Below, piece by piece: positions 4,758-44,533 of a stretch of DNA of 47,290 nucleotides. Each line of letters opens with the position of its first letter. Positions within the stretch are counted from its first letter, which is position 1. A program made the translations under genes and the position numbers. The stretch comes from a virus, in IMG/VR virus record IMGVR_UViG_3300029319_006496, positions 1 to 47,290 of that record; one strand, 5' to 3'. The notes beneath the pieces were generated by a model. That model was not told the origin of the DNA. It did no database searches and saw only the letters and a program-made list of their open reading frames with translations.

Positions 4758-4770
4758 CATATTTATATAC
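4758..4770 (+). promoter_or_regulatory. ATATTTAT element, probable late promoter
   Basis: CATATTTATATAC lies in the 23-base gap before the ATG at 4781. It is one of a set of near-identical elements found in intergenic gaps of this window, which suggests a phage sigma-factor (gp55-like) recognition box. Experimental start sites are unknown. Confidence 0.4.
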
Positions 4771-27884: not shown

Positions 27885-27905
27885 TGTATATTTATATATG
27901 ATAAA
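27885..27905 (+). promoter_or_regulatory. ATATTTAT element, probable late promoter
   Basis: The element TGTATATTTATATATGAT followed by AAA occupies the gap before 27921. It closely resembles the sequence at 32763-32780 near the end of the giant fibre gene. Confidence 0.45.
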
Positions 27906-28517: not shown

Positions 28518-31500
28518 ATGGCAACAAAAAATATAGTCCCCAGAATTACTAACGAAGGAAAGTTAGGTAAACCAGATAAACGGTGGGCACAAGGAAATTT
28601 TTCAACAGGAAGTTTTGGACTCATAAGTGGTTCATTGATTCCGGACGCTAAAGAGTCTCACGACTTAGGTACAGCAGCAAGACCTTGGAAAGAAATATTT
28701 GTCTCGACAAGTTCATTAAACTTTGTTAATCCTGCTAATGATAGTGTTATACAAACATTAGCAGCTACAGAAGATGGTTTCGACTTTGGAGGAGCAGACG
28801 TAAGTGGTTCTACAATTAGTGGTTCGAAACTACACGTTACTGGAGATGCTTTCATTGGAGGTAATCTTACTTTAGGTGACGCTAATACTGATTCGATAGA
28901 AATCACTGCCGATTTAACTTCAGACTTGATTCCTAATGCAAGTGATAGTTTTAATCTAGGAAGTGAAACTCAAAGATGGAATGATTTATTTTTAAGTGGT
29001 TCAATTTCAGCTAGTGGAGGACCAGTAGATATTGATAGTGCTACAACCGTTGCCATAAATAGTACTACAACAACAACTATTGAAGCCACTACAACATTGA
29101 GTGCTAAAGGAAATGGGGGAGCATCATTCGGTGATGATACAGGTACTTGGGAGTTTGATGGAGCAGGAGCTGTATCAGAAACAGGTATAACATCATTTAG
29201 TCTTACACCTTCTAGTACGGTTGATGTTGACGCTGGAGGCGCAATCACGATAGATGGTACATCATTAACAATAGGAGGTGATGGTGATACAGGAGCTGTC
29301 AACATAACAAGTACAGATGGTGTTAGTGTAACAGGAGCTATTACTGGTTCAACTCATATAAGTGCTAGTGGTAATTTATCAGCAACAGGTAATTTAGATA
29401 TTGATGGTACAGGTAACATTCAAGGTGTTGTAACTCTACAAGATGAATTATCAGTAAGTGGAGCTATCACAGGTTCAGCCATAAGTGGTTCCACTGGAGC
29501 CTTTACATCAATCAACGTTGATGGAGGTACTATTGATGGTATCACTTCATTAACAGCAGCAGGTAACTTAGATATAGGTTCTCACGATTTGAGAGCAGCA
29601 ACAATTACAGCTGATGGATTAACAGATGGTAGAGTTGTGTTTGCAGGAAGTAACGGAGTGTTATCAGACGATTCTGATTTATCATTTAGTGGTGATACTC
29701 TTACAGCTACAAAGATTGGAGCATTTGAAGCCGCAGGAGCTATCGATTTCTCAGATGAGAATATGACTAACGTAAATATTGATAGTGGAGCCATAGATGC
29801 TGTTACTTTAGGTACTAATTCAGCCATAACTGAAGCTCAAATTGATAGTATTAATATCAATGGTACTACAATAAAAGATTTTGCCACATTAAGTGGTTCA
29901 GCAGCCGCTACGATTTCAGTAGGAGGAAACGTTACAGCAGGAGGTGGTACTTTAGGAGATATTAAAGTAGGAGTTACAGCTGACGGAGAAATTGATTCAA
30001 CAGGAGCTATCACAATAGATGGTGGTACTGGTGTTACAATTCAAGAAGACGGTACTGATGTCATAGCTATTGATACTAATCAAGATGTGTTGTTTAGTCG
30101 AACAGGAGGTTCATCTTCAGACCCTGATGTCGAGTTTGACGGATATACAAAGTTTGATGGTATATCAGAATTTACAGCTGATGTTACATCAAGTGCTAAT
30201 ATAAGTGGTTCAAATTCAGGTGTGTTGACGTTTGGTAATGCTACAATTAATAATGCATCAATCGGTTCATTATCAGCCGCTTTAGATGCTAATAATCAAA
30301 ACATAACAAATATTGATATTGATAGTGGTACAATAGACGGAACAGACGTAACGGTAGGTACAGGTAAAACACTTGACGTTAGTGGTGGTACTCTCACATT
30401 AGCTAATGACCAAATAAGTGGTGATAAGATAAACGGAGGTACAATCGGTTCAGTAACTATCTCACAATTAGCAGGAGCATTAGATGCTAACAATCAAAAT
30501 ATCACTAATATAAATGTTGATAGTGGAGCTATAGATGCTGTAACACTTGGTACTAACTCTGCTATTACAGAGGCTCAAATCGATAGTATAAATATTAATG
30601 GCACAACTATTAAAGATTTTGCTACATTGAGTGGTTCATCATCAAGTACGATTTCTGTAGGAGGAACAATCAGTGCTAATCAATTAGGTACCGATGATGA
30701 CCCTGTTACAGCTTTCATCAACAATGGTGAAATCGATGGAACGGTAATCGGAAGTGAATCAGCAGCAGCAGGTACATTTACAACGATAAATGCTTCAGGA
30801 GATATTAGAACTGAAGGAAACGTCATAGCTGAAAATTATATCGTGAGTTCTTCTGTAACGCATATGACACAATCATTTAGTGAAGGTTCAACGATATTCG
30901 GTGATACAATAAGTGATTCACATCAATTTACAGGTTCAGTTGAGATAACAGGTAGTTTTGTAGTTAACCCTCACGGGTCAAATTTAATCACGGGTTCAAA
31001 ACTTACAATAGATGCAGCAGGAGGATATAGTGGTTCTTCAACTTCAATAGGTTCATTTGGAAAAGTAAATATATTTAACGATACTTTAAAATTAGGTGTT
31101 GATGCAGTTAGAGAAATATCTTCAGATGGAGAACTTGTGATTGATGGTGCTACAGGTGTTAAGGTACAAGAAGGTGGAACTGATATTATAGCTATCGACA
31201 CTAACCAAGATGTTCTATTTAGTAGAACTGGTGGTTCAACATCTGACCCTGATGTTGAGTTTGATGGTTATGTGAGATTCGATGGTTCAGTAGAAGCTGA
31301 TTCAGGTATAAATGTAGATGGTAATATAACGGTAGACGGAAACATTACAGGTGACCACGGTTCAAACAATTTACAAATTGTATCTACAAACGCAGCTGTA
31401 TTAATTGAAGGTATTACATTCGATGGTAATGACGTAACTATTCCAGGAAACTTAACGGTTCAAGGAGAACAGACAGCTGCTTCTAACGCAGAGTTAGTTG

Positions 31501-32828
31501 TTTCATCCTCAACGATAACGGTTGCTAGTGGTAGTACTGCTAGTGCTGATTTAGACGGAGCAGGATTAAACTTTGGTGATAATGGTACTACAGCTAACCT
31601 ACGATATGTACACTCAGGTACACAAATAACTTCTAGTGTTCCTTTCCAAGCACCTTCAGCTACATTTGATGGTGGTGTTGATATTGATAATTTCAATATT
31701 GATGGTACAGAGGTGGCACTATCAAGTGGAGACTTCACGTTAAACGTAGCAGGTGATGTCAATTTCGACGCAGATGGAGGAGACTTTACTTTTACAGATA
31801 ATAGTGTTCCTTTAGCAACTATAAATGCTAACTTAATAAGTGGTTCACATGCAGCAGACTTACAAGTAGGTGGTAATGTATCAGCCTCAAATGCAATATT
31901 CACGGGTCGTGTTGATATAAACGGAGTAGTTGATATTGATGGAACGGTAGATGTAGATAACGATACCTTCTCAGTAGATTCAAGTGGAGCAGTCTCAATC
32001 GACGCAGGAGCAGCTTCAAACATCACAACGAGTGATGGAACACTTACTATCGAGGCAGGAGGAGCTGACGATAAACTTGTCTTGAAAGGTGACCACACAG
32101 GAGGAACAGCTATTCATATTGATGGTAATGAGAATGCTAACTCAATCATCGATATAGATGGAGGAAGTATTGATATAGATGCGGCAGCAAGTACAACTAT
32201 TGACTCAGCTGTAACAAGTTCAATTACATCACCTAGAATAGACCTTCACGGTACCGTTCTTGAAATGAGTGCTTCAAGTTTCACAACTATTACAGGTAAC
32301 TCTAGTGTTACTATTGGAACTGGAGGAGCAGGTGATATTAATTTAAATGCAACTGGTGATGTAAATATACCGAATGGTGTTGGTGTAACTTTTGGTGATG
32401 ATGGTGAAAAAATTGAAGGAGATGGAACAGATTTAACCATTAATTCAAGCGCTGATATAAACTTAACTGCAACTTCTGATATTAACATTCCTGCTCAAGT
32501 TGGTCTTACTTTCGGAGCTGATACTGAAAAGATAGAAGTTGATGGTAGTAACAATATGTCAATCATAGCCAATGGTGATATAACATTACACCCAGGAGGC
32601 AACAATGTGTTACCAGGTGGTGATAATGAAGACGACTTGGGAGCACCTGCTACGAGATGGAGAAACATCTACACCGCCGATATGCACTTCAGTAATATGG
32701 GAACTGAAGGAAACGATGTTGATGGCTCAACCGGAAATTGGACACTACAAGAGGGTGAGAATGATATTTATATGATAAACAACAACACTGGAAAAAAATA
32801 TAAAATAGGATTAATCGAAGTTGAATAA
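28518..32828 (+). CDS. Giant repetitive tail-fibre protein
   Basis: 1436 residues, ATG after AGGA. Almost entirely Ser/Thr/Asp/Gly/Ile-rich short beta repeats of the GxLTVxGxxT/IDIDGxxx kind, consistent with a long beta-helical shaft. There are longer internal duplications: a 40-residue block is present twice with identical residues, and DTNQDVLFSRTGGS-SDPDVEFDGY also occurs twice. The last 90 residues (WRNIYTADMHFSNMGTEG ... NDIYMINNNTGKKYKIG) form a tip domain I recognise from other marine phage fibres. Strand-loop-strand Ser/Thr repeats are the kind of acceptor used by TibC-like heptosyltransferases, one of which is encoded at 36723-39173. Confidence 0.82.
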   Translation: MATKNIVPRITNEGKLGKPDKRWAQGNFSTGSFGLISGSLIPDAKESHDLGTAARPWKEIFVSTSSLNFVNPANDSVIQTLAATEDGFDFGGADVSGSTISGSKLHVTGDAFIGGNLTLGDANTDSIEITADLTSDLIPNASDSFNLGSETQRWNDLFLSGSISASGGPVDIDSATTVAINSTTTTTIEATTTLSAKGNGGASFGDDTGTWEFDGAGAVSETGITSFSLTPSSTVDVDAGGAITIDGTSLTIGGDGDTGAVNITSTDGVSVTGAITGSTHISASGNLSATGNLDIDGTGNIQGVVTLQDELSVSGAITGSAISGSTGAFTSINVDGGTIDGITSLTAAGNLDIGSHDLRAATITADGLTDGRVVFAGSNGVLSDDSDLSFSGDTLTATKIGAFEAAGAIDFSDENMTNVNIDSGAIDAVTLGTNSAITEAQIDSININGTTIKDFATLSGSAAATISVGGNVTAGGGTLGDIKVGVTADGEIDSTGAITIDGGTGVTIQEDGTDVIAIDTNQDVLFSRTGGSSSDPDVEFDGYTKFDGISEFTADVTSSANISGSNSGVLTFGNATINNASIGSLSAALDANNQNITNIDIDSGTIDGTDVTVGTGKTLDVSGGTLTLANDQISGDKINGGTIGSVTISQLAGALDANNQNITNINVDSGAIDAVTLGTNSAITEAQIDSININGTTIKDFATLSGSSSSTISVGGTISANQLGTDDDPVTAFINNGEIDGTVIGSESAAAGTFTTINASGDIRTEGNVIAENYIVSSSVTHMTQSFSEGSTIFGDTISDSHQFTGSVEITGSFVVNPHGSNLITGSKLTIDAAGGYSGSSTSIGSFGKVNIFNDTLKLGVDAVREISSDGELVIDGATGVKVQEGGTDIIAIDTNQDVLFSRTGGSTSDPDVEFDGYVRFDGSVEADSGINVDGNITVDGNITGDHGSNNLQIVSTNAAVLIEGITFDGNDVTIPGNLTVQGEQTAASNAELVVSSSTITVASGSTASADLDGAGLNFGDNGTTANLRYVHSGTQITSSVPFQAPSATFDGGVDIDNFNIDGTEVALSSGDFTLNVAGDVNFDADGGDFTFTDNSVPLATINANLISGSHAADLQVGGNVSASNAIFTGRVDINGVVDIDGTVDVDNDTFSVDSSGAVSIDAGAASNITTSDGTLTIEAGGADDKLVLKGDHTGGTAIHIDGNENANSIIDIDGGSIDIDAAASTTIDSAVTSSITSPRIDLHGTVLEMSASSFTTITGNSSVTIGTGGAGDINLNATGDVNIPNGVGVTFGDDGEKIEGDGTDLTINSSADINLTATSDINIPAQVGLTFGADTEKIEVDGSNNMSIIANGDITLHPGGNNVLPGGDNEDDLGAPATRWRNIYTADMHFSNMGTEGNDVDGSTGNWTLQEGENDIYMINNNTGKKYKIGLIEVE
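29781..29900 (+). repeat. Internal fibre duplication, copy 1
   Basis: Encodes 40 residues starting DSGAIDAVTLGTNSAITEAQ and ending DFATLSGS. The same 40 residues are encoded again at 30519-30638, with many synonymous differences. Confidence 0.9.
30519..30638 (+). repeat. Internal fibre duplication, copy 2
   Basis: Protein-identical to 29781-29900 while differing at many third codon positions, which indicates an old duplication held by selection at the protein level. Confidence 0.9.
32763..32780 (+). promoter_or_regulatory. ATATTTAT element inside the end of the giant fibre gene
   Basis: GATATTTATATGATAAAC lies within codons for NDIYMIN, about 70 bases before the first collagen-like fibre gene. 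It shares ATATTTATAT and GATAAAC with the 27885 element. It could serve the three collagen-like genes, but coding constraint may explain it. Confidence 0.3.
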
Positions 32829-32850
32829 TCAAGTTATTGGAGAAATTTAA

Positions 32851-34137
32851 ATGGCTTTAATTACTTCTTCTGTATCATCTAGTTTTGCAGAAACTGGTAG
32901 TTTCGGACACCTTAAAATTACAGGTGACCTTGACCAAGACCAACACGGAACATTGTTTGGTACAGGTTCTTTTGGCAAAATCATAGCCAACGAGACAGCT
33001 ATTGGAGGTCCTACAGGAATAGCTTTGGCAGCTAAAACAAGTGGTACTTCAGGAGTTCAAGGTGGTACGGGAGCAGGTGGTGGTACAGGAGGAACAGGCG
33101 GAGCTGGCGGAGCCGGAGGAACTGGAGCTGCTGGAGGTACTGGTGGTACAGGTTCAAAAGGAAGTCAAGGAGCAGAAGGACCTCAAGGTGACCAAGGACC
33201 TCAAGGAGGCACAGGCGGTACTGGAGCGGCAGGCGGTACTGGTGGTACAGGTTCAGCTGGTAGTAAAGGAGCACAAGGTGGTCAGGGAGGTCAAGGTGGT
33301 ACTGGTGGTATCGGAGCACAAGGTGGGTCAGGCGGTACAGGAGGAACTGGTGGTACGGGTGGTAAAGGACCACAAGGACCACAAGGACCACAAGGTGGGA
33401 CAGGCGGTACTGGAGGAACTGGAGCTAAAGGAGCAACTGGTCCACAGGGTCCAGCAGGTCCACAAGGTCCCTCAGGAACTTCACCCTACTGGACAACAAA
33501 TGCCACGTTGAGTTGGGCAGGTACAAAAACAATCAGAGGTTCAGGTAACTATGTCTACACAACACGAATCAGAAATTCAGGAGCAAATGGTTGGGGACTC
33601 GTTGTAAAATCTGGTTCTACAAACGTACAACTTCAAAATAGTAGTGGTACAGCTATTTTCCAAATGTATTCAAATGGAAACGTTACACCTAGTCCTATGT
33701 CAGACAGAAGAACTAAAACAAATATCACACCATTTCCCTCTCATAGTATAAGTAACTCGGGTAGTGCGTTATCTGAGATTATGAAATTAGATGGATTAGC
33801 CAAAACATTTGTTGCTAATATGGAAGATACAGGTTCGTGGCCTGCTTCACTTAAAGCTACAGAACCTAATCCTAATTTACCCTGGAACACTCTTACTGGT
33901 TATATAGCACAAGATGTAATGGAAATTACAGGTTCAGACGGAGTTTCAGGGTCAGCTCACGTAAATAAATTTGTCCAAAGAATCAGAGAAGATATTAATG
34001 ATGTTTTAGCAGATGATACTGAAACTTATTTTAGTTTTGATTACGATGGTTTAGCAAGTTTAAAAGCTCAAGCCACAATAGATTTAATGAAAGAAGTCGA
34101 AGGACTTAAAACAAGAGTACAGGCGTTAGAGGGTTAA
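32851..34137 (+). CDS. Collagen-like fibre protein with S74 chaperone, copy 1
   Basis: 428 residues, ATG after GGAG. Layout: MALI start and an STGSFG-like beta segment (1-60), a collagen-like G-x-y tract (about 66-209, rich in GGT, GPQ and GAQ triplets), and a short knob (about 213-282). It ends in an intramolecular chaperone of the endosialidase type (peptidase S74) from SDRRTKTN (284 on) to a coiled-coil end. In this family the chaperone trimerises the fibre and usually cuts itself off at the conserved Ser, with the Lys of the SDRRxK motif as partner. The Thr-rich G-x-y tract is a plausible glycosylation target. Confidence 0.88.
   Translation: MALITSSVSSSFAETGSFGHLKITGDLDQDQHGTLFGTGSFGKIIANETAIGGPTGIALAAKTSGTSGVQGGTGAGGGTGGTGGAGGAGGTGAAGGTGGTGSKGSQGAEGPQGDQGPQGGTGGTGAAGGTGGTGSAGSKGAQGGQGGQGGTGGIGAQGGSGGTGGTGGTGGKGPQGPQGPQGGTGGTGGTGAKGATGPQGPAGPQGPSGTSPYWTTNATLSWAGTKTIRGSGNYVYTTRIRNSGANGWGLVVKSGSTNVQLQNSSGTAIFQMYSNGNVTPSPMSDRRTKTNITPFPSHSISNSGSALSEIMKLDGLAKTFVANMEDTGSWPASLKATEPNPNLPWNTLTGYIAQDVMEITGSDGVSGSAHVNKFVQRIREDINDVLADDTETYFSFDYDGLASLKAQATIDLMKEVEGLKTRVQALEG
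33046..33477 (+). repeat. Collagen-like G-x-y coding tract, copy 1
   Basis: About 48 consecutive Gly-x-y triplets, dominated by GGT, GPQ, GAQ and GAG. Base composition is clearly richer in G and C than the flanking genes because of Gly codons. Repeat-rich DNA here can change length by slippage or recombination. Confidence 0.9.
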
Positions 34138-34140
34138 GAT

Positions 34141-35370
34141 ATGGCATTAATAGGTACAATATCAGGTAGTTTTGATTCAACAGGAAGTTTCGGTTCTGTA
34201 TTTGTTACAGGTGAAGTTACTTCCTCTACACCTAACGTAGCAACAATAGGTAGAGTTGAGGCCAAAACACAAATTGTAGCAGGAGGAGTAACTTTTAATT
34301 CTTTCACAAGTGGTACCTCTGGAACTTCAGGAGCAACTGGAGGACAAGGTGCTCAAGGAGGTACTGGAGGTATCGGAGCACAAGGTGCTCAAGGAGGTAC
34401 TGGAGCTGCCGGCGGCACAGGCGGTACTGGTTCTACTGGTAGTCAAGGTTCACTCGGGGGAGATGGACCAAAAGGAGCTCAAGGCGGAACTGGTGGTATC
34501 GGAGCACAAGGTGGTACAGGTGGAGCAGGTGCTCAAGGACCCACTGGTTCGACTGGTTCGACTGGTGCAACTGGAGGGACTGGTTCATCAGGTCCCCAAG
34601 GTGGGACAGGCGGTACTGGCGGAACTGGCGGTACAGGTTCAGCAGGTTCACAAGGAGGTGGAGGTGGTACTGGTGGAACAGGTGGTACAGGAGGTGGCGG
34701 AGCAACCGGTAACCAAGGAGGCCAGGGACCAACAGGACCAACAGGAACAGATGGTTTAACTATTTGGGATGATAACCAGACATTGAGTTGGAGTGGAATG
34801 AAAATGTTGACTGGAACTGGTGTTGGTTTCAAACTAAAATTTGATGGTATTGCAACTTACAACTACGGATTAGTCGTAAGAAGTAAAGATAGACCTCTTC
34901 ATACACAAAACTACGGAGGAACTGGTAGAATTTGGTTCTATGGTAGTGGTAATACTTATCCTACTTCAATTTCTGATAGAAGGTCTAAGAAGTATTTAAA
35001 ACCTATCAGTGGTACTCTTGATGCTAAAAAAGAACTTGAGTATCTTGATGGTAAGTTGACAACCTTTTCGAAAATAAATTATGATTCTGCTTCATTTAGT
35101 GGTTCAGACCCAGTTATAGCAGGACCAGATATAATGGATTGGAACATTCATACTGGTTATGTAGCACAAGAAGTTCTTGAGTTGACTGGTTCAGCACACG
35201 CTCGAAACTTTGTTCATAGAATCAATCAAGATGAAAATAAAGTAGATGAGGAACACGGTTATTACAGATTTGATTATAATGGTCTCAATACACTTTCAAC
35301 TCAGGCTCTTATAGACATTGAAAAAGACGTAACAGATTTGGAGGCAAGGGTAACGACCCTTGAAGGATAA
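34141..35370 (+). CDS. Collagen-like fibre protein with S74 chaperone, copy 2
   Basis: 409 residues, three bases after copy 1. Same layout: MALIGTISGS start, a G-x-y tract at about 58-204, a distinct knob (IWDDNQTLSWSGMKML and on), and an S74 chaperone from SDRRSKKY (278). The knob differs from copies 1 and 3 while the scaffold is kept, as if a shared stalk and chaperone carry different tips. Assembly as a self-processing homotrimer is expected from the family. Confidence 0.88.
   Translation: MALIGTISGSFDSTGSFGSVFVTGEVTSSTPNVATIGRVEAKTQIVAGGVTFNSFTSGTSGTSGATGGQGAQGGTGGIGAQGAQGGTGAAGGTGGTGSTGSQGSLGGDGPKGAQGGTGGIGAQGGTGGAGAQGPTGSTGSTGATGGTGSSGPQGGTGGTGGTGGTGSAGSQGGGGGTGGTGGTGGGGATGNQGGQGPTGPTGTDGLTIWDDNQTLSWSGMKMLTGTGVGFKLKFDGIATYNYGLVVRSKDRPLHTQNYGGTGRIWFYGSGNTYPTSISDRRSKKYLKPISGTLDAKKELEYLDGKLTTFSKINYDSASFSGSDPVIAGPDIMDWNIHTGYVAQEVLELTGSAHARNFVHRINQDENKVDEEHGYYRFDYNGLNTLSTQALIDIEKDVTDLEARVTTLEG
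34312..34752 (+). repeat. Collagen-like G-x-y coding tract, copy 2
   Basis: About 49 Gly-x-y triplets with GGT, GAQ and GST units. Similar but not identical in unit order to copies 1 and 3. Confidence 0.9.
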
Positions 35371-36666
35371 ATGGCATTAATAGGTTCAGTATCATCAAGT
35401 GCACTAGACATTGATAATATGTCAACTACCGGAAGTTTCGGTAATTTCGTAGTAGCTACCAGAATATCAGGTTCAAGTCCTAACTCTGTTTTACGTGTTA
35501 AGAAATTGATAGTTGAGGACAGAATTACTCTAGCCGGTACAGAACAGGCAGCTCAAAGTTCTGGCACAAGTGGGGAAGCAGGAGGAACTGGAGCGGTAGG
35601 AGGAACTGGCGGTACAGGTTCAGCAGGAAGTACTGGAGCTACTGGAGGACAAGGTGCTCAAGGAGGTACTGGAGGAATAGGAACTCAAGGTCCACAAGGA
35701 GGTCAAGGATTCGCAGGTGGTGGAGGAAATACAGGTGGTACTGGTTCAGCGGGTAGTCAAGGTGGTACTGGAGGAAAAGGTGGTCAAGGACCACAAGGAC
35801 CAACTGGCCCTGGAGGTGGAACTGGTGGTACAGGTGGTGCCGGAGGAGGCGGTGGCACAGGTGGCACTGGAGCAACTGGTGGAGCAGGAGGTCAAGGCGG
35901 CGGCGGTGGCGGCGGTGGTACAGGTGGTACTGGCGGAACAGGAGGTCAAGGCAGCCAAGGTGGTCAAGGACCAGCAGGTCCCCAGGGAGGTGCAGGTGAT
36001 ACTCGTTGGAATGACAATGAAACACTAACTTGGTCAGGTCAAAAAGAACTTTTATCTGCAGGTAATTATAATTACGCTATGTCAATCAACAATGCTGATA
36101 GTGGATTTATCAGTAAATCACCTCAAGTCCCGTTACACTTACAGAATAGTAGTGGTACAGGGTTGTTCTGGTGGTATCACAATGGAAACACAACCCCACC
36201 AGTTATGTCTGATAGAAGATTAAAAACAAATATTCAACCTCTTGAGGCTTCATTAAGTCAAAGTGCTTTAGAAGAAATTAAAAAAATAGATGGTTTGGCT
36301 CATACTTTTACTTATGATAATTTACCCACACGTTCTCTTGATGATGGTACTATAACGACAGATTCATATAAGATTGGACAATCTATTAGTGAGTCTTTTG
36401 ATTGGAATCTACACACTGGTTTAGTAGCTCAAGACATCAGAGATATTACAGGTTCAGGTGATTTTATTAATAAATTAGTTTTGAGAACACAAGAAGATGA
36501 AAGTGTAGTGAGAGGAGATGAAAGTATAAAAGCAGGAGCTCCTGTCTCGGGTTCTTATTACGGACTCGATTATGCCGGTTTAGCTACAATCTCGACACAA
36601 GCTCTGATTGACCTTACTAAAAGAGTTCAAACTCTAAAATCCAGGATAGCTACTCTCGAAGGATAA
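35371..36666 (+). CDS. Collagen-like fibre protein with S74 chaperone, copy 3
   Basis: 431 residues, its ATG directly abutting the stop of copy 2. MALIGSVSSS start, G-x-y tract at about 63-209 including a long all-Gly-rich part (about 171-184), a knob with WNDNETLTWSGQKELLSAGNYNYAM, and an S74 chaperone from SDRRLKTNI (280), the closest of the three to the family consensus. It is the last structural gene before the modification operon. Trimerisation and self-cleavage are inferred from the family. Confidence 0.88.
   Translation: MALIGSVSSSALDIDNMSTTGSFGNFVVATRISGSSPNSVLRVKKLIVEDRITLAGTEQAAQSSGTSGEAGGTGAVGGTGGTGSAGSTGATGGQGAQGGTGGIGTQGPQGGQGFAGGGGNTGGTGSAGSQGGTGGKGGQGPQGPTGPGGGTGGTGGAGGGGGTGGTGATGGAGGQGGGGGGGGTGGTGGTGGQGSQGGQGPAGPQGGAGDTRWNDNETLTWSGQKELLSAGNYNYAMSINNADSGFISKSPQVPLHLQNSSGTGLFWWYHNGNTTPPVMSDRRLKTNIQPLEASLSQSALEEIKKIDGLAHTFTYDNLPTRSLDDGTITTDSYKIGQSISESFDWNLHTGLVAQDIRDITGSGDFINKLVLRTQEDESVVRGDESIKAGAPVSGSYYGLDYAGLATISTQALIDLTKRVQTLKSRIATLEG
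35557..35997 (+). repeat. Collagen-like G-x-y coding tract, copy 3
   Basis: About 49 Gly-x-y triplets, with GGQGGGGGGGG-type stretches giving the most G-rich DNA of the window. Confidence 0.9.
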
Positions 36667-36691
36667 AAAAATTATGTTTTAGTAATATGTT

Positions 36692-36707
36692 TTATATTTA
36701 TTACTGG
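36692..36707 (+). promoter_or_regulatory. ATATTTAT element, probable promoter of the modification operon
   Basis: TTATATTTATTACTGG lies in the gap between the fibre genes and the glycosyltransferase. It overlaps the right arm of a possible hairpin (AGTAATA 36681-36687 with TATTACT 36699-36705). If real, it would switch on the modification genes together with the late structural genes. Confidence 0.45.
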
Positions 36708-36722
36708 TAAATAGGTTACTGA

Positions 36723-39173
36723 ATGAAAATAAAAGTCCATACAAGTGTTATTGGTGATGCTGGTTATAATGTTCACGCTCGTGAGTTTTTGACCTCGTTA
36801 AACAAATTAACACCTTTAAAAATAAGAAATTATAGTGTCGGTAAAACATGGAACGGCATTAGTGATTCACCTCACGATGAAGAGCCGTATATGACAGACG
36901 ACCTAAAATCAATGCTATCAGAACAAACTTTGATAGATGAAAATGGTGAACAACAAGAATGGTCAATTTATTCGTATGATAAAAATTTTAATCAAGACAT
37001 CAATATAGTTCTAGTATCAGAATCACACAATTATTATTATCAAAATTATTTAGGTTACAATATCGCATATTGTGTTACAGAATCCACTACATTAAAAAAA
37101 CATTTCAAAGAAACACTCAAAAGATTTAATCAAATTTGGGTAGCTAGTCAATGGCAAAAAAGATGTTTTATTCAACAAGGGTTAGATGAAACAAAAATTA
37201 AAGTTGTAAATGAAGGTGTAAATACAAGTATATTCAAATCTTCAGATGTTCCTATTGTCAATAGTAGATTTTCATTTATTGTTGTTGGTAGATGGGAACA
37301 TAGAAAATCTACTTATGAAATAGTAAAAACGTTTCTAAAAACATTCGATACTCAGGAACCAGTTGACCTTGTTTTACTTACTGATAATAGTTTTGATGAA
37401 AAATATCACAATACAGACAAAACATTAAGTGATTTAAATATTAGTGATTTTAGAATAAAAACTTTTTCACATTTAGATATTAAAGATTACGTAAAACAAT
37501 TACAATCGAATCACGTTTTTTTATCTTGTTCGAGAAGTGAAGGTTGGAATCTTCCCTTGATTGAAGCTATGTCATGCGGTATACCCTCGATTTATTCTGA
37601 TTGTAGTGGACAACTTGAGTTTGCTAACAATAAAGGAATTCCTGTTAGAGTTTTAGGAAAGAAAAAATTCGATGAAGAAGAATATTACGAACCCGACTTT
37701 GAAGATTTATCTACTAAGATGAGACTTGTAAAATCAAATTACGAAAGTTTTTTATCGAAAGCTAAAAAAGAAGCAAAATTAATACAAGAAGAGTTTGATT
37801 GGGATAATGTAGCAAAAAAAGCTTATGATATTTTATCAAATATAGATTACAATGTTGACAAAGAAAAACAGATAGTTGATTTGATACAATGTGATGGTAA
37901 ACATTTACAAAATATAACAAGTCAAAATTATAAAGATGGTTTTAAAGTCAGAATAAATAGTTATGTAAACGGAGAGAATGATTTATATCAAATAAATCTT
38001 ACAGATACTTCAACAGATGAACTGATATATAGTAACCAAATTCGTCCAGGGTACTTTGTCTCAACTGATAGAAAATGGTTTACTCCTTGGAAAGTTGAAA
38101 TATTTGATGTAAAGTCAAAAAAGTTAATATTTGAATATACACTCGACTTAAAAGATAAAAAAGTTTTAGTTGTATTAGATTCGAGTTCTTTGGGAGATGC
38201 TATAGCCTGGTTTCCTCAAATAGAAAGATTTAGAAAAATTAGTCAAAGTAATGTGATTTGTTGGACTACCGATAAATATACAAAACTATGGCAAGATAAT
38301 TATCCCGAAGTCGAATTTGTTACCGATGTTCTAAATGTTGAGGCTCATATAAAATATGTGTTGTCGTGGGAGGGATGGAGCCACGATAGTCAAACAGAAG
38401 AAAGACGTAATGATAAAACTTTCGATTACAATGTAAGTCCGATTAATTATCAGACGATACCCTTACCTAAAGGTCCTGCTGAAATATTAGGAATTGATTT
38501 TAAAATTGAAAGACCTATCGTAAATTTAAGTAAATACAAAAGAAATATTCAAGAACGATATGTATGTATTAATACAATGTCAACAGCTCAATCAAAATTT
38601 TGGAATTATGGGTACGAACGAGGAAAAGAAACAGATTATGGTTTAGGTTGGCAACTATTGATTTATTATCTTAATTCTATTAATTATAAGGTTGTTGTGT
38701 TAAATAGAGATAATGTTTATGGATATGGAGGAGAAGAATGGGATAAAAGAATTATGTGGAATGAACACAAATTTAATGGTGTTATAGATAAAACAGGAAG
38801 ACAATACGATATTGAAAGTAGAATTAATGACTTAAAATATGCTGATTTTTTTATAGGACTTAATTCAGGTATGAGTTGGTTATCTTGGATGATTGGAACA
38901 CCTACCATAAGTATTGTTAATCTACAACCTCCTGAACTACTGATACCTGCTGATAAAATTGTTTCTAGGTCTAAAAATCATCAATATAATGAAAATATTT
39001 GTACTGATTGTTGTTTAGAGTATCCGTTCAAAAGAGATATGTGGTTATTTTGTCCGAGACACAATAATACTGAGAGAGAATTTGAATGCAGTACAACTAT
39101 CACTCCTAAGATGGTAATAAGTAAAGTAAAAGAATATATGGATGAAAATAACTTGTGGAAGGGATTATCGTGA
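36723..39173 (+). CDS. Fusion of GT4-type glycosyltransferase and TibC/AAH-like protein O-heptosyltransferase
   Basis: 816 residues. N-terminal half (about 1-375): GT-B glycosyltransferase with FIVVGRWEHRKS (186-196) and the EX7E motif (Glu273-Glu281) in SEGWNLPLIEAMSCGIPSI. C-terminal half (about 385-812) matches the autotransporter strand-loop-strand O-heptosyltransferase family: a beta entry domain with YFVSTDRKWFTPWKVEIFD, then SSLGDAIAWFPQIERFR (488-504) and IGLNSGMSWLSWMIGTP (711-727). The metal-binding finger is CTDCC (760-764), WLFCPRH (Cys777) and FECSTTIT (Cys789), equivalent to the iron site of TibC. Family enzymes add heptose from ADP-heptose to Ser/Thr of proteins. Having both activities in one chain suggests building a disaccharide or two linkages. 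Confidence 0.85.
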   Translation: MKIKVHTSVIGDAGYNVHAREFLTSLNKLTPLKIRNYSVGKTWNGISDSPHDEEPYMTDDLKSMLSEQTLIDENGEQQEWSIYSYDKNFNQDINIVLVSESHNYYYQNYLGYNIAYCVTESTTLKKHFKETLKRFNQIWVASQWQKRCFIQQGLDETKIKVVNEGVNTSIFKSSDVPIVNSRFSFIVVGRWEHRKSTYEIVKTFLKTFDTQEPVDLVLLTDNSFDEKYHNTDKTLSDLNISDFRIKTFSHLDIKDYVKQLQSNHVFLSCSRSEGWNLPLIEAMSCGIPSIYSDCSGQLEFANNKGIPVRVLGKKKFDEEEYYEPDFEDLSTKMRLVKSNYESFLSKAKKEAKLIQEEFDWDNVAKKAYDILSNIDYNVDKEKQIVDLIQCDGKHLQNITSQNYKDGFKVRINSYVNGENDLYQINLTDTSTDELIYSNQIRPGYFVSTDRKWFTPWKVEIFDVKSKKLIFEYTLDLKDKKVLVVLDSSSLGDAIAWFPQIERFRKISQSNVICWTTDKYTKLWQDNYPEVEFVTDVLNVEAHIKYVLSWEGWSHDSQTEERRNDKTFDYNVSPINYQTIPLPKGPAEILGIDFKIERPIVNLSKYKRNIQERYVCINTMSTAQSKFWNYGYERGKETDYGLGWQLLIYYLNSINYKVVVLNRDNVYGYGGEEWDKRIMWNEHKFNGVIDKTGRQYDIESRINDLKYADFFIGLNSGMSWLSWMIGTPTISIVNLQPPELLIPADKIVSRSKNHQYNENICTDCCLEYPFKRDMWLFCPRHNNTEREFECSTTITPKMVISKVKEYMDENNLWKGLS

Positions 39174-40309
39174 AAGATAGTAGAACAAATGATATGAACC
39201 TACAAAAACGTATTGAATCAGTTTTGAAAAAAAATCAAGCTCGTAATACGATGAAAAATTTTATTAAAAATTCAAAAATCAAACTTGAACCACTCAAGTA
39301 TATTTCAATTATGACAACTTCAGTATGTACTTCTAATTGTGTGTATTGCCCTTATCCTTATGCTTGGACAACAAAAAATCCCGGATATATGAGTGATGAA
39401 CTATATCAAAAAATAGTTTTAGATATAAAAAATACTTATCCAGGATTTGGAGGACATTATAGTTATCAAAACGGAAACGAACCGACAGCTGACCCAAAAT
39501 TTATAGAAAGAATGGAATATTTTTATCAACAATTACCTAACGCAAGGATAAATTTTCCTACAAATGCTAATCTATTGACCCCCGAACGTTCGAAACAACT
39601 GATTGATTTAATGTTGAGATATGAAGATTTCAATGACGGTCGAATACATTATGGTATACTTGTACACTTCGCTGGTACAGATAAAGAGTCTTGGAACGAA
39701 ATTATGGGAAGTAGATACGAATATGAAGATGTTGTACACAATATTCAATCTTTACTTAAATATAATAATCAACGAGACAATATTATTCCTATTGATATAA
39801 TGGGTTATCACGGGGCTGACCCTCACGGCAGTACTTTGTTTGATATGAATGAAGAAGTAGCATATACAAAAGAAAATCTTGATTTGTGGTTCTATGACCC
39901 CGAAGATTACGAAAAACATTTACGTAGTCTTTTTGATGGTATAGCCCCTTATAGTTGGAATACTATGTTGTTCCAAAACAGAGCAGGTGATTTAAGATTA
40001 TTTGATGAATGGAGGGGTAATAGACAAGTAAGAGAGATAGGACCTGATAATGAGTTTACGTGTGCTAGATTCTTTGATGGTAAAGGTCTGCATGTTCTGT
40101 ATGATGGGAGTGTAACGGTTTGTTGTAATGATTGGCAGAAAAGAAATATTTTAGGTAATTTATCCTCTCAAACAATATCAGAGTTATTTGATAGTGAAGA
40201 GTATAAAGAATTTATGTATATGGGACACGGTTACATTAGTAGTCCTCCTGATTTTATATGTAAACTTTGTACTGATATGCAAGCTATACAAGATGAGGGA
40301 ATGTCGTGA
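39170..40309 (+). CDS. Radical SAM protein with SPASM-like C-terminal cluster region
   Basis: 379 residues from a GTG at 39170, chosen because it overlaps the previous stop as GTGA, like other genes in the operon, and has a GGAAGGG site. The radical SAM motif CTSNCVYC (Cys53, Cys57, Cys60) is intact. The C-terminal region has CARFFDGKGLHVLYDGSVTVCCNDW and a final CKLC, the pattern of a SPASM domain holding extra iron-sulphur clusters. Such enzymes modify peptides, proteins or sugars by radical chemistry. The substrate is not evident; a fibre protein or a sugar in this pathway is inferred from position. Confidence 0.85.
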   Translation: MKDSRTNDMNLQKRIESVLKKNQARNTMKNFIKNSKIKLEPLKYISIMTTSVCTSNCVYCPYPYAWTTKNPGYMSDELYQKIVLDIKNTYPGFGGHYSYQNGNEPTADPKFIERMEYFYQQLPNARINFPTNANLLTPERSKQLIDLMLRYEDFNDGRIHYGILVHFAGTDKESWNEIMGSRYEYEDVVHNIQSLLKYNNQRDNIIPIDIMGYHGADPHGSTLFDMNEEVAYTKENLDLWFYDPEDYEKHLRSLFDGIAPYSWNTMLFQNRAGDLRLFDEWRGNRQVREIGPDNEFTCARFFDGKGLHVLYDGSVTVCCNDWQKRNILGNLSSQTISELFDSEEYKEFMYMGHGYISSPPDFICKLCTDMQAIQDEGMS

Positions 40310-41940
40310 GTAAAATTATAGGAATATATGGAGGTTCCTGTGCTCACGATGCATGTTCTGTTTATATGGTTGATGGAGAAATCAAATCAATTATTCAGGA
40401 AGAGAGACCAAGAAGAGTAAAGGTATATAAAGACCAATATGCAAGTCCGATATTGAGTCTACACAGGATTGAAAAAGAATTTGATGTTAAACTTAAAGAC
40501 GTTGATTGGGTCTGTACAGCATCACCTATGGGAATAGATTCACAATTTTTATATCCACATTCTGTACCTAAAGAAAAATTATTTATAGTGAATCATCACG
40601 AATCACATTGTACAGGAGCTTATTATACATCAGGATTCAATGAAAAGACTATTGTGTTCTCTTATGATGCCGGAGGTCTTTCAAAATCAAAAGGATACAA
40701 AACTACTTTTGGTCATACGTACTTAGCTGAAAATAATAAAATGACATTGATAAATACGTTTCCTATGGGATACACAGCAAGTATTCCCTGTATGTATGCT
40801 GCTGTTACTAGGTATTTAGGTTGGTTAGTACATAAAGACGAAGGTAAAGTTACAGGTCTTGCAGGCCACGGAGAGTATAGAGATGAAATTTATAAATCAT
40901 TTGAAACAATCTGTTGGTATGATAAGAGTATGAAAAGATTTCTTCCTAATGGTCAGGCTGAAAGTGCTACTGGAATAAATCAAGTACTGAATAGTCTTAT
41001 TAGTGATAAGATTATAGATGTCGAAGATGAAAAGTCAAGAGCTGATTTAGCCTTTAATATGCAACATTTTTTAGAAAATAAGGTATGTGAATATTTAAAT
41101 CACTTAAATGAATTATATCCTGACTATAAAAAAATAGCTTTAGCTGGTGGAGTGTTTGCTAATGTTAAATTAAATCAAAGAATAAACGAATTAGATTGGG
41201 TCGATGAAACATACGTATATCCGGCAATGAATGATGCTGGAAATGCTTTGGGTAGTGTATTGAGTAAAGCTGTAGAGTTAGGAGAATGGAAGACTCAAAG
41301 ATTCGAACATTTATTTTATGGTACAAAATTTAGTCAAGATTATATTGATGATATAATACAAGGAGTTACAATGGATAACAAAAAGATTAAAAGAGACAAA
41401 GCTGATATGAAGTCTGTTGCTAAATATCTTAACGATGGTAATATTATAGGTTGGTTTAAAGGTAGATTTGAGTTTGGTCCTAGAGCTTTAGGAGCACGTA
41501 GTGTATTAGTCAGACCTACTGATGCTGAAACACACGAAAAACTAAATAAAAGACTAGGAAGAAATGAAGTGATGCCTTTCGCACCTATCGTTTTAGGAGA
41601 AAGAGCTAACGATATATTTGTTACAAATAACAAATCACACTACACAGCCGAGTTTATGACAATGTGTTATGATACAAGAGAGGAGTGGATAGATAAGATA
41701 CCTGCTGTAGTTCATAAAGTAGATAAAAGTGCAAGACCTCAGTTAGTATTCGATTACAACCCGTTTTATGAAGTTCTTGTTGAGTATGATAAACTATCAG
41801 ATATACCAGTTCTTCTCAATACTTCTTTTAATGTTCACGGTGAACCTATTATCGATGGACCTGACCAGGCTATCAAACATCTTGTTGATGGTGTTGTAGA
41901 TTATTTAGTAATGGAGGATTACGTTTACTATGTTGAGTAA
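40306..41940 (+). CDS. Full-length O-carbamoyltransferase (NodU/CmcH/TobZ family)
   Basis: 544 residues, GTG start overlapping the previous TGA. N-terminal Kae1-like (ASKHA) domain, about 1-350: IYGGSCAHDA, IQEERPRRVK, the metal-site motif NHHESH and SYDAGGL, then KDEGKVTGLAGHG and LAGGVFANVKLNQ. C-terminal YrdC-like domain, about 365-544: WFKGRFEFGPRALGARS, MPFAPIVL and LLNTSFNVHGEPI. In TobZ the C-terminal domain makes carbamoyl-adenylate from carbamoyl phosphate and ATP, and the N-terminal domain moves the carbamoyl to a hydroxyl, usually on a sugar. All major motifs look intact. It is the first half of a duplicated two-gene cassette. Confidence 0.92.
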   Translation: MSKIIGIYGGSCAHDACSVYMVDGEIKSIIQEERPRRVKVYKDQYASPILSLHRIEKEFDVKLKDVDWVCTASPMGIDSQFLYPHSVPKEKLFIVNHHESHCTGAYYTSGFNEKTIVFSYDAGGLSKSKGYKTTFGHTYLAENNKMTLINTFPMGYTASIPCMYAAVTRYLGWLVHKDEGKVTGLAGHGEYRDEIYKSFETICWYDKSMKRFLPNGQAESATGINQVLNSLISDKIIDVEDEKSRADLAFNMQHFLENKVCEYLNHLNELYPDYKKIALAGGVFANVKLNQRINELDWVDETYVYPAMNDAGNALGSVLSKAVELGEWKTQRFEHLFYGTKFSQDYIDDIIQGVTMDNKKIKRDKADMKSVAKYLNDGNIIGWFKGRFEFGPRALGARSVLVRPTDAETHEKLNKRLGRNEVMPFAPIVLGERANDIFVTNNKSHYTAEFMTMCYDTREEWIDKIPAVVHKVDKSARPQLVFDYNPFYEVLVEYDKLSDIPVLLNTSFNVHGEPIIDGPDQAIKHLVDGVVDYLVMEDYVYYVE

Positions 41941-42673
41941 TATCTTAGCTCGAAATCTGTATTTTCAATATACGTTTAATTCTACACCTAAAGTAGAAAT
42001 ATCAAATCGAACAGAGAAATATCCTTACGAAGGATTTCTAAAAATAGATTTTGGTATTCTTGATAGCAAAAGACAACAAACTAACTTAGTAATGAGTAAA
42101 ATGGCAAACCCTCCTTGTTGGTATGGGACTCAGATGTTTTCATTTTATGTACCCTGGGTCATTCAAGTTACGACTTGGGATTCCCAAGACGGATTTCAGA
42201 TTTTAAGTTATCATCAATATAATGATTATAATAGAGATGTTCAAATAAAGTTATATACTGATGATTGGGAACAAATGTGCACTTGGATAAAAGTTTGTTT
42301 CGAATACAGAAATCTTCATAGATGTCATTTAAACTTTGCTGTAAATAATAAAGATTTACAAAGAAGAGCAGCAAAAGATTTCGGTGTATCGTTTTTAGAT
42401 ATGGATGATGAAATGTTTAGTGTTTATAAAACTTACAATATAGGTAGATTTGAACAACCAGAAGATTCAGGAAACACGATAAAAATTTTAGATGAAAATC
42501 AAAAAGAAACACAAATACCCAATCCTTATCCTGAATCATCACCTGCAGGTAAGAGATTTGTTGAGACTAATATGTTTTACTCAATGAAAAATCCTAGAGA
42601 CCCATTTCAGTTAGGTGATGAAGATGTAGCTAAAGATATTCTAGGATTATCAGATTTGGAGATGTTTAGATGA
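41930..42673 (+). CDS. Carbamoyltransferase partner protein of unknown function, copy 1
   Basis: 247 residues, ATG overlapping the carbamoyltransferase end by 11 bases. Aromatic-rich beta/alpha pattern: FSFYVPWVIQV, then DVQIKLYTDDWE, a HRCHLNF strand, YKTYNIGRFE and a C-terminal KNPRDPFQLGDEDVAKDILGLSD. It is clearly related to the gene at 43748-44533. It matches no family I know. Always placed here directly after a carbamoyltransferase, it may be a partner, acceptor-specificity factor or further modifying enzyme. Confidence 0.75.
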   Translation: MLSNILARNLYFQYTFNSTPKVEISNRTEKYPYEGFLKIDFGILDSKRQQTNLVMSKMANPPCWYGTQMFSFYVPWVIQVTTWDSQDGFQILSYHQYNDYNRDVQIKLYTDDWEQMCTWIKVCFEYRNLHRCHLNFAVNNKDLQRRAAKDFGVSFLDMDDEMFSVYKTYNIGRFEQPEDSGNTIKILDENQKETQIPNPYPESSPAGKRFVETNMFYSMKNPRDPFQLGDEDVAKDILGLSDLEMFR

Positions 42674-43755
42674 GTAGTTTATTCGGAGTTTATGGAGGAC
42701 CAAGTTCTCACGATGCGGGAGCTGTTTTAGTTAAAGACGGAAAAATATTATCAGCTATTCAAGAAGAAAGACCGAAACGAATTAAAGTTTGTGATGATTT
42801 AGATGCTATTGCTGACTTTTCTATTCAGAGAATTGAAAACGAATTTAAAATGAAACTTAATCAAGCTGACTACGTTTGTACAGCCACTCCGTTAAGTGCT
42901 GTCTCTTCATTTTGGAATGAAACACATAACGTACCAAAGGAAAAAATTTATATTGTAAATCATCACGATGCACATTGTTATGGAGCATATTATACATCAG
43001 GTTTTAATGAACCAACATTAGTTATTTCGTATGATGGAGGAGGACTTGGACATTTATACGGACACGAAAACACTTATGGTAAATTGTATCTAGCTGAAGA
43101 TAACACAATGAAACATCTCAATACAATGGCATTTAGTAAGAGTTCGACTATTCCTTGTGCTTATGCTTATACAACACGTTGGTTAGGTTGGAGAATCCAT
43201 AAAGATGAGGGAAAAGTAACAGGTCTAGCAGGTCATGGTGTATATGATGAAACAATTTATAAAAGTTTTGAATTTTTATGTCAGTACGATAAACACACGA
43301 TGACATTTACACCTCCAGGACTTTCAACTTCAGACTTAGGAATACATTTAGTTTTTGAGTATTTAGAAGATATGAAAGTTATTCCTACACGTTACACAAG
43401 AGATGATGAACAGAAAGCAGCTAACTTAGCTTATAATATGCAATTGTTTTTAGAAAACAGAATGAAAGAATATTTAAATCATTTACACGAAGTCTATCCT
43501 GAATACACAAGAGTGGTAGTTGCAGGAGGAGTATTTTCAAATGTAAAACTAAATCAAAAACTTAACGAACTAGATTGGGTAGAAGAAATGTATGTGTATC
43601 CGGCAATGACAGATGCAGGACTAGCTTTAGGAGCTACTCTCAAAAAAGCTGTAGAACTAGGAGAGTGGAAGACACAAAGATTTAATGACGTGTTTTTAGG
43701 TACAAAATATACACAACAAGAAATAGATTCAATTATAGGATGGTCTGATGAATAA
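42670..43755 (+). CDS. Truncated carbamoyltransferase: Kae1-like domain only
   Basis: 361 residues, ATGA overlap with the previous gene. Closely similar to residues 1-350 of the enzyme at 40306-41940 (VYGGPSSHDAG, IQEERPKRIK, NHHDAH, SYDGGGL, KDEGKVTGLAGHG, VAGGVFSNVKLNQ, YPAMTDAG). It ends at GTKYTQQEIDSIIGWSDE, the exact place where the full-length copy passes into the YrdC-like domain. That domain, which makes carbamoyl-adenylate, is absent. The N-terminal motifs are conserved, so this looks like a kept transferase half that may take its donor from the other copy, rather than junk. Confidence 0.88.
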   Translation: MSSLFGVYGGPSSHDAGAVLVKDGKILSAIQEERPKRIKVCDDLDAIADFSIQRIENEFKMKLNQADYVCTATPLSAVSSFWNETHNVPKEKIYIVNHHDAHCYGAYYTSGFNEPTLVISYDGGGLGHLYGHENTYGKLYLAEDNTMKHLNTMAFSKSSTIPCAYAYTTRWLGWRIHKDEGKVTGLAGHGVYDETIYKSFEFLCQYDKHTMTFTPPGLSTSDLGIHLVFEYLEDMKVIPTRYTRDDEQKAANLAYNMQLFLENRMKEYLNHLHEVYPEYTRVVVAGGVFSNVKLNQKLNELDWVEEMYVYPAMTDAGLALGATLKKAVELGEWKTQRFNDVFLGTKYTQQEIDSIIGWSDE

Positions 43756-44533
43756 TAATATACAACGTATGGATGAGGGATTCTTTAGAAGTGTAGGTCC
43801 TAGAATAGAATTAACATTTAACTTAGGACCTAAATTAAAGATTTTTGGTGAAAAAACAACAACAAAAAAATATAAAAATCAAGATGTTAGAAAAAACTAT
43901 TTAGTTTTATTCAATCACATAACTAAATCACAACAAAGACATTGGTTGACTTCAGGAGTTGTTCCAGCTCAAGAAGTGGGTTTTGATTATTATCAGAATG
44001 CTTTCGCTACTTTTTATGTCGATTGGTTTATAGAAGTAAAAGAATTTAATCCAGATTATGGATTTCATAGTATTTTTAGTCAACGGATAAATTTGATAGG
44101 AAAAAATGTAATAGTCAAACTCAATACAAATGATGATGAGGAAGCAGATATATGGGCTCAAGTAGCTGTCGATTTTCAAAAGAAACACGATTGTAATTTG
44201 ATAATCCAATCAAAGTCTGATTATGTAATCAGAAAATATCAAGATGGTACAATACCCTATGTAATCACTGCTCAGTGGAATGAAAGACTACAAAATATAT
44301 ATGCTACTTATGATATAGGTCGTTATCAGTTTGAAGAGTTTGGTTCTAATCTGTCGGGTAATGCTATACATTATGATATAATGGATGAAGCTAATTTACC
44401 TAATCAAATAGGTAACAGGTATCCTACAACAAATTTATTTGCTTCTTTTAAGAATCCTCGTAATTATAATAATCAAACGAGTGAAGAGATTGCAAAAGAC
44501 ATATTAGGTCTTTCAGATTGGAGTATAATATGA
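43748..44533 (+). CDS. Carbamoyltransferase partner protein of unknown function, copy 2
   Basis: 261 residues, overlapping the preceding gene by eight bases. Paralogue of 41930-42673: shared TFNxxPK-x-I start, FATFYVDWFIEV, NVIVKLNTND, HDCNLII, YATYDIGRYQ and the terminal SFKNPRN...EEIAKDILGLSDW. The pair repeats the order carbamoyltransferase then partner, indicating duplication of a two-gene cassette. Conserved Trp, Tyr, Asp and Arg positions suggest an enzyme or sugar-binding fold, but I see no known signature. Confidence 0.75.
   Translation: MNNNIQRMDEGFFRSVGPRIELTFNLGPKLKIFGEKTTTKKYKNQDVRKNYLVLFNHITKSQQRHWLTSGVVPAQEVGFDYYQNAFATFYVDWFIEVKEFNPDYGFHSIFSQRINLIGKNVIVKLNTNDDEEADIWAQVAVDFQKKHDCNLIIQSKSDYVIRKYQDGTIPYVITAQWNERLQNIYATYDIGRYQFEEFGSNLSGNAIHYDIMDEANLPNQIGNRYPTTNLFASFKNPRNYNNQTSEEIAKDILGLSDWSII

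Follow-up and report, generated by a model that had tools for sequence, protein, structure and literature searches.

Three tandem Gly-x-y fibre genes with S74-type C-terminal parts in the fibre region of a T4-like phage fragment

The T5-like phages DT57C and DT571/2 carry more than one fibre gene, and their products LtfA and LtfB each have a receptor recognition domain and, ahead of a C-terminal chaperone, a predicted site of autocleavage; this double-gene locus has been described as genetically unstable (PMC4728585). The side-tail proteins EPclA and EPclB of E. coli O157:H7 prophages combine a Gly-x-y stalk with a C-terminal trimerisation domain, and EPclA forms a trimeric dumbbell (PMC3368898). 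Here we examine three fibre genes, F1, F2 and F3, at positions 32851-36666 of the IMG/VR record IMGVR_UViG_3300029319_006496. The window, by which we mean the whole of this stretch, is a single virus record of 47,290 bases and represents a fragment of a T4-like phage known from environmental DNA alone. Like the LtfA/LtfB locus, it contains adjacent S74-ending fibre genes, here three, with F2 counted by identity and not by profile. LtfA and LtfB differ in being two genes of a siphophage, one of whose fibres is believed to be attached via the other, and the passages of the source that bear on them make no mention of a Gly-x-y stalk (PMC4728585). EPclA and EPclB differ in that a true collagen triple helix has been demonstrated and that the C-terminal trimerisation domain is PfC (PMC3368898).

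We consider it fairly probable that F1 to F3 encode three homotrimeric receptor-binding fibres, matured by S74 domains, made together and derived from tandem duplication. The direct observations behind this reading are the open reading frames, the segment architecture, the S74 homology, a Ser-Lys dyad, the near-equal stalk length, a stretch common to two of the tracts, and the gene neighbourhood.

Layout and relations of the three fibre genes

F1 (32851-34137, 428 amino acids), F2 (34141-35370, 409 amino acids) and F3 (35371-36666, 431 amino acids) are adjacent, intact open reading frames with their own starts, separated by 3 nucleotides (F1/F2) and 0 nucleotides (F2/F3), and they fill exactly the interval in which the first-pass annotation had placed three tandem fibres. 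All three match tail-fibre families in PHROGs, and there is a weak match to the long tail fibre distal subunit in PDB 6f45 (E 0.041 for the whole sequence, 10.8 bits for the best single stretch). In the order F1/F2/F3, the common layout consists of a MALI anchor (64/57/64 amino acids), a Gly-x-y tract, a tip (72/70/68 amino acids) and an S74 part. The repetition of stalk and chaperone behind MALI starts, as described in the annotation, thus holds for every copy, and the SDRR motif is found in all three, at residues 284, 278 and 280. "Anchor" and "small exposed tip" are inferred labels for segments without domain matches. The segments, all on the + strand, are as follows.

32851..33042, + strand: N-terminal anchor of F1, 64 amino acids, MALI...TGSFG (open reading frame and segmentation)
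33043..33483, + strand: Gly-x-y stalk of F1, 49 uninterrupted triplets (segmentation, composition)
33484..33699, + strand: tip (knob) of F1, 72 amino acids (homology to the F2 and F3 tips)
33700..34137, + strand: S74 chaperone of F1, 145 amino acids plus stop, Ser284/Lys289 (PF13884 over cut-off; predicted cut just before Ser284)
34141..34311, + strand: N-terminal anchor of F2, 57 amino acids (open reading frame and segmentation)
34312..34761, + strand: Gly-x-y stalk of F2, 50 triplets (segmentation, composition)
34762..34971, + strand: tip (knob) of F2, 70 amino acids (homology to the F1 and F3 tips)
34972..35370, + strand: S74-type chaperone of F2, 132 amino acids plus stop, Ser278/Lys283 (PF13884 under cut-off; identity to the S74 parts of F1 and F3; dyad)
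35371..35562, + strand: N-terminal anchor of F3, 64 amino acids (open reading frame and segmentation)
35563..36003, + strand: Gly-x-y stalk of F3, 49 triplets (segmentation, composition)
36004..36207, + strand: tip (knob) of F3, 68 amino acids (homology to the F1 and F2 tips; 85.3% identity in the related locus L096)
36208..36666, + strand: S74 chaperone of F3, 152 amino acids plus stop, Ser280/Lys285 (PF13884 over cut-off; dyad; 84.8% identity in L096 and L099)
34336..34370 (F2) and 35641..35675 (F3), + strand: 35-nucleotide stretch common to the two tracts (exact match, three nulls)

The S74 parts form the extreme C-terminus of each protein (last 145, 132 and 152 residues). Against the PF13884 cut-off of 22 bits, F1 (24.7) and F3 (31.5) scored over and F2 (13.8) under, and a second scan gave 27.9, 33.3 and 15.7 for F1, F3 and F2, respectively. 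We assign an S74 domain to F2 as well, because its C-terminal part is 46.1% identical to that of F1 (128 aligned residues) and 43.9% to that of F3 (132 aligned residues). The annotated S74 chaperones are thereby recovered by profile in two copies and by identity in the remaining one. A Ser-Lys dyad (Ser at i, Lys at i+5) occurs in all three fibres and also in both relatives of F3, which read SDSRLK.

Pairwise identities between the copies are 31.1-38.3% for the anchors, 32.9-45.6% for the tips and 43.9-46.7% for the S74 parts, with 2-4 gap columns in the tip alignments and 20-23 in those of the S74 parts; the corresponding value for the tracts, 58-65%, is inflated by glycine. The tips had been annotated as different knobs. 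They have indeed diverged, yet by sequence they are members of one domain family, and the notion of different folds or unrelated knobs was dropped since the three align. Different receptors for the three fibres are plausible, and this is the least certain element of our interpretation.

The uninterrupted Gly-x-y runs of 49, 50 and 49 triplets compare with at most 18, 14 and 19 in within-tract residue shuffles (2000 each). Glycine occupies the x position in 49/44/57% of the triplets in F1/F2/F3 and threonine the y position in 37-48%, and proline is found at x in 18/10/12% and at y in 0%. At E 0.1, the Pfam Collagen model (PF01391) had no match in any of the whole proteins F1 to F3; with the tracts alone, F2 reached 10 bits (E 0.75, cut-off 27.2) and F1 and F3 gave no match, and the composition correction in HMMER may add to these misses. 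The same model matched six of eight other phage Gly-x-y proteins taken into the comparison (L222, two in L226, L224, L005 and L016; L004, L088, L179 and L223 stood outside it) and missed L019 and L025, both Gly-Gly-Thr-biased with proline-free tracts. Low proline alone is not the cause of a miss, because the proline-poor proteins of L016, L224 and one of those in L226 do match; glycine at x is the feature that sets F1 to F3, L019 and L025 apart. The description of the stalks as collagen-like is therefore true of the periodicity only and we do not class them as collagen, although they may still serve as trimeric rods. Gly-Thr-rich stalks of this kind, including the proline-free tracts of L019 and L025, constitute a sequence class that the Pfam Collagen model misses.

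Compared at offsets of up to three triplets, the tracts resemble each other more than shuffled ones do, with 0, 0 and 8 of 1000 shuffles reaching the observed value (F1/F2, F1/F3 and F2/F3), so the equal stalk length could be explained by common descent. F1 and F3 align best in register (0), F1 and F2 at an offset of one triplet and F2 and F3 at one of six, and the last offset coincides with the exact 35-nucleotide F2/F3 match, the longest among the three pairs. Past exchange between the F2 and F3 tracts is likely, because all three nulls make so long a match improbable (0 of 2000, p 0.007 and p 0.0005). An exact 26-nucleotide F1/F2 match is marginal (p 0.016, 0.135 and 0.031), and the 18 nucleotides shared by F1 and F3 are as expected by chance. 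Free variation of tract length, which the annotation had entertained, is disfavoured because the tracts measure 49, 50 and 49 triplets although the other segments differ by more than half.

Maturation, joint transcription and competing explanations

Self-cleavage at an S74-type dyad has been studied in MyRF, where alanine changes of either S587 or K592 stopped cleavage, so that the pair is indispensable, and where the cut falls between P586 and S587; the equivalent dyad of endosialidase NF is S911/K916, with the same spacing (PMC8326128). By analogy with MyRF, the cut in F1 to F3 is predicted just before the serine of SDRR.

Our hypothesis is that F1 to F3 stem from a tandem duplication within the host-recognition (tail-fibre) region of a T4-like phage and that, as spacing and motifs suggest, their products are made together. 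As in known S74 fibres, the C-terminal S74 domains would join three identical chains in register, with the tip and the Gly-x-y stalk folding upstream of them. The dyad would then cut just before the SDRR serine and free a helper of 132-152 amino acids, leaving a mature fibre of 277-283 amino acids per chain with the small tip exposed. The related MALI/TGSFG anchors, again on the model of known S74 fibres, may attach the fibres to similar places on the virion, and divergence of the tips could widen or diversify receptor binding.

The gene spacing and promoter-like motifs suggest that F1 to F3 are transcribed together. The heptamer TATTTAT flanks the fibre genes and is absent from 32851-36666, and it is this placement that suggests co-transcription. 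Three copies are relevant here.

27889..27895, + strand: TATTTAT, candidate late promoter in the gap before a 108-amino-acid gene
32765..32771, + strand: TATTTAT inside the end of the shaft-like gene, 86 nucleotides before F1, which could be the promoter of F1 to F3
36695..36701, + strand: TATTTAT, candidate late promoter in the gap before a glycosyltransferase gene

Of 17 copies on the + strand, 9 fall within the 1,237 bases of intergenic sequence examined (against a null mean of 1.1 and at most 6 in 2000), at 4760, 8799, 8803, 14097, 15003, 18143, 23157, 27889 and 36695, mostly shortly before a start codon, as against none of 11 in the reverse orientation. The total over the whole window and both strands is not in excess (28 found, 25.2 expected), and placement and orientation alone are unusual. 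In the related locus L007, five of the six + strand copies of TATTTATA stand 36-60 nucleotides before a start codon (motif positions 9961, 15600, 15987, 18613 and 19363). In this phage group, TATTTAT is a candidate for the late-promoter motif, which in T4 is a different one, TATAAATA. As a promoter motif in the window, TATAAATA was set aside, with no excess (10 found, 6.8 expected). Sigma-70-like and terminator-like sites are not above shuffles, and the sigma-70-like sites are rarer than in region shuffles (13 against 26.1). The purine-rich stretches GAGGG (34129-34133) and GAAGG (35362-35366) precede the starts of F2 and F3; they are part of the codons for the terminal LEG of F1 and F2, at the expected ribosome-binding-site position of the next fibre gene.

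Several points weigh against our reading. The S74 match of F2 stays under the Pfam cut-off, and the F2 gene contains a sigma-70-like site (35056-35085, 11 of 12 matches). Divergence between the tips is no demonstration of different receptors, and an AlphaFold model of the F3 tip and S74 part (monomer, five sequences) had a mean pLDDT (predicted local distance difference test) score of 35, which is unusable and gives no tip fold. The presence of the fibres in the virion and their cleavage are extrapolated from known S74 fibres, and neither F1 nor F2 had a relative of its own among the matches listed in the viral scans.

The alternatives differ in how they treat the same facts. If the three fibres simply bound the same receptor and differed by drift, the tips would be expected as found, that is, one family, somewhat more diverged than the chaperones; three intact and strongly diverged copies rather suggest separate roles, and F3 is under purifying selection, which makes such redundancy unlikely. 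We give slightly less credence to a switching reservoir, in which a single fibre would be in use at any time and recombination through the stalks would swap the tips. The exact 35-nucleotide F2/F3 match and the marginal 26-nucleotide F1/F2 match between tracts would fit, and a passage on thermophilus phages counts in its favour (PMC5601072), but each of the three genes is intact with its own start, the longest exact match between copies outside the tracts is 16 nucleotides, and the inverted repeats in 32700-36750 amount to just four imperfect pairs of 14-22 nucleotides, a count taken without a chance control. We found no switching signature, either as exact matches outside the tracts or as inverted repeats in 32700-36750, and no recombinase among the open reading frames scanned, which were part of those in the window. 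Of the annotation's choice between a multi-receptor set and a switching reservoir, the multi-fibre architecture stands, and recombination between the tandem fibres is weakly supported, by the 35-nucleotide tract match.

F1, F2 and F3 might also be the three chains of a single fibre, an arrangement that would require matched stalk lengths and has a familiar counterpart in complement C1q, where three chains join in one assembly. The stalks of 49, 50 and 49 triplets, the tight tandem genes with no candidate TATTTAT promoter between them and the membership of all three chaperones in one family agree with this; equal stalk length also follows from duplication, however, and with tips at 33-46% and S74 parts at 44-47% identity with 20-23 gap columns, mixed trimer interfaces are less likely. 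The S74-type fibre pb1 of T5, moreover, is a homotrimer (PMC4690869). We therefore regard a heterotrimer as improbable. More improbable still is a specific version in which one C1q-like fibre with three different tips has a proline-poor Gly-Gly-Thr stalk that forms a glycine-rich rod unlike the collagen triple helix, perhaps stabilised by threonines glycosylated via the neighbouring cassette. Three separate homotrimeric fibres remain the reading that we favor. If it is true, the locus offers three related fibres on equally long stalks in one compact natural set, which could help to explain how several receptor binders are maintained in one phage at once and how each S74 chaperone is kept with its own copy; otherwise F1 to F3 are an ordinary tail-fibre locus.

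Gene neighbourhood and relatives

All main open reading frames of the window are on the + strand, and they include a T4-like set of terminase, portal, head maturation protease, major head protein, head-tail adaptor and fibre-like genes. The nearest phage records to the portal protein are Microcystis phage Mel-JY01 (55% identity) and Flavobacterium phage immuto (51%). In immuto, too, annotated fibre genes are found, placed between the gene for putative head completion and that for the tail sheath. In the window, F1 to F3 lie between a shaft-like gene and a sugar-modification cassette.

28518..32828, + strand: 1436-amino-acid shaft-like protein directly 5' of F1, with TGSFG present as in the F1 anchor
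36723..39173, + strand: glycosyltransferase (Glycos_transf_1 domain, profile match), first gene of the sugar-modification cassette

The profile scan gave no S74 match in the 1436-amino-acid protein. The similarly placed protein in L007, a locus that shares the 108-amino-acid gene with the window at 62% identity, ends in an S74 of its own; after it come a small gene, then one for the tail sheath (over the Pfam cut-off) and one for a gp19-like tube protein (below its cut-off). Where other loci were selected through the 108-amino-acid gene, very long Gly-x-y proteins come next, with 874 (L016), 395 (L019) and 429 (L025) triplets; S74 was matched in those of L016 and L019, and the open reading frames of L016 and L025 run off the locus end. 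The one in L016 (10334-20320) follows the 108-amino-acid gene, is at least 3329 amino acids long, has a longest run of 384 of its 874 triplets and matches both Pfam Collagen and S74. Those in L019 (10326-18440) and L025 (10329-16892), with no Pfam Collagen match, have glycine at about half of the x positions, threonine at 70-74% of the y positions and no proline in the tracts.

The cassette 3' of F3 contains the glycosyltransferase, a radical SAM protein, two carbamoyltransferase-type proteins, a DUF6445 protein, an epimerase and a pfkB kinase. The carbamoyltransferase-type genes (40306-41940 and 42670-43755) alternate with two function-unassigned genes (41930-42673 and 43748-44533), which have an AKDILGLSD stretch in common near the C-terminus, an apparent tandem duplication of a gene pair. 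Elsewhere in the window, the adjacent genes at 19831-20610 and 20600-22276 are related at about 70% nucleotide identity, as seen via cross-matches to L006, and the latter has a below-cut-off match to the T4 gp15-type tail sheath stabiliser. A 2OG-Fe(II) oxygenase gene stands directly after the Gly-x-y/S74 fibre of L226 and one small gene further in the Synechococcus phage S-8S56; the positions concerned are L226 8330-8920 and L222 1787-2967. The DUF6445 protein of the window (44518-45090) contains a HAD stretch, a possible iron-binding motif of the HxD type. A link between oxygenase genes beside Gly-x-y fibres and hydroxylation of the fibre stalk is possible.

The locus tallies exclude L001-L003, which are copies of window stretches. 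The two nearest relatives holding F3, L098 and L099, are about 80% identical in nucleotides from window positions 35956 and 36073, respectively, to the window end. The L098 contig thus begins in the F3 tract and the L099 contig 70 nucleotides past it. Long pieces of L006 are 88-94% identical to the window, and this locus ends in the shaft-like gene. Compared with L096, from the same contig as L098, the tip and the S74 part of F3 are 85% identical. Selection was measured for F3, by a simple counting method in which the relatives' S74 segments began one codon late. The nonsynonymous (dN) and synonymous (dS) values against L096, 0.108 and 0.85 for the tip and 0.111 and 0.57 for the S74 part, indicate that both segments are under purifying selection and are conserved, not hypervariable.

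L004 and L005, the two matches of the F1 scan, were rejected as relatives of F1; they matched through the Gly-x-y region and the matching open reading frames have no S74-like motif. The junction pattern LEG-stop-MALI occurs in at least 119 stretches, and among the 80 of these listed as loci no open reading frame has both a Gly-x-y run and an S74 motif; in L179 there is a run without the motif and in L168 the motif without a run, and the remaining motif matches look like chance. An S74 alignment scan returned at least 3 viral loci and 17 bacterial-genome loci, and among those listed no triple set of the F1-F3 kind was found by run and motif, with L226 nearest in shape. A tblastn search of 50,697 phage records with the C-terminal parts of F1, F2 and F3 gave no match at E 1e-5. 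With F3 at E up to 10 it returned 48 records, and the best of the 30 listed was S-8S56, at E 0.006.

Comparison with known systems

The host recognition cluster of pelagimyophages also combines a T4-like fibre region with glycosyltransferases, in some cases with radical SAM cassettes, and collagen repeats occur among the putative receptor-binding proteins (PMC7029224). It differs in being bounded by VrlC and gp14, and a triple S74 fibre set does not appear in the passages of the source that describe it (PMC7029224). Similarly, among the titles, abstract openings and passages that a search of the open-licence literature with few terms brought up, none dealt with three tandem S74 fibres on stalks of this kind, which is no proof of absence.

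Single fibres of the same build do exist. In S-8S56 (OQ504984), a protein described as "similar to tail fiber protein" also has a Gly-x-y stalk (55 triplets), a tip and a C-terminal S74 part with SDRRLK, alignable to those of the window at 36% identity. It differs in that there is one fibre in the stretch seen, which is cut by the record end, and in its longer tip and its stalk, which is rich in proline and charged residues and matched by Pfam Collagen. L226 (IMG/VR 3300032326_000453) also encodes a 314-amino-acid protein with an anchor of about 62 amino acids, a 39-triplet stalk, a short tip and an S74 part, adjoining an 867-amino-acid Gly-x-y protein; unlike the window, it has one short S74 fibre of such shape, on a proline-rich stalk that Pfam Collagen matches. 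The equal-length, proline-poor stalks in a triplicate set look like an unusual variant of a known design. The design itself, with anchor, stalk, tip and S74 part, is already known in phages.

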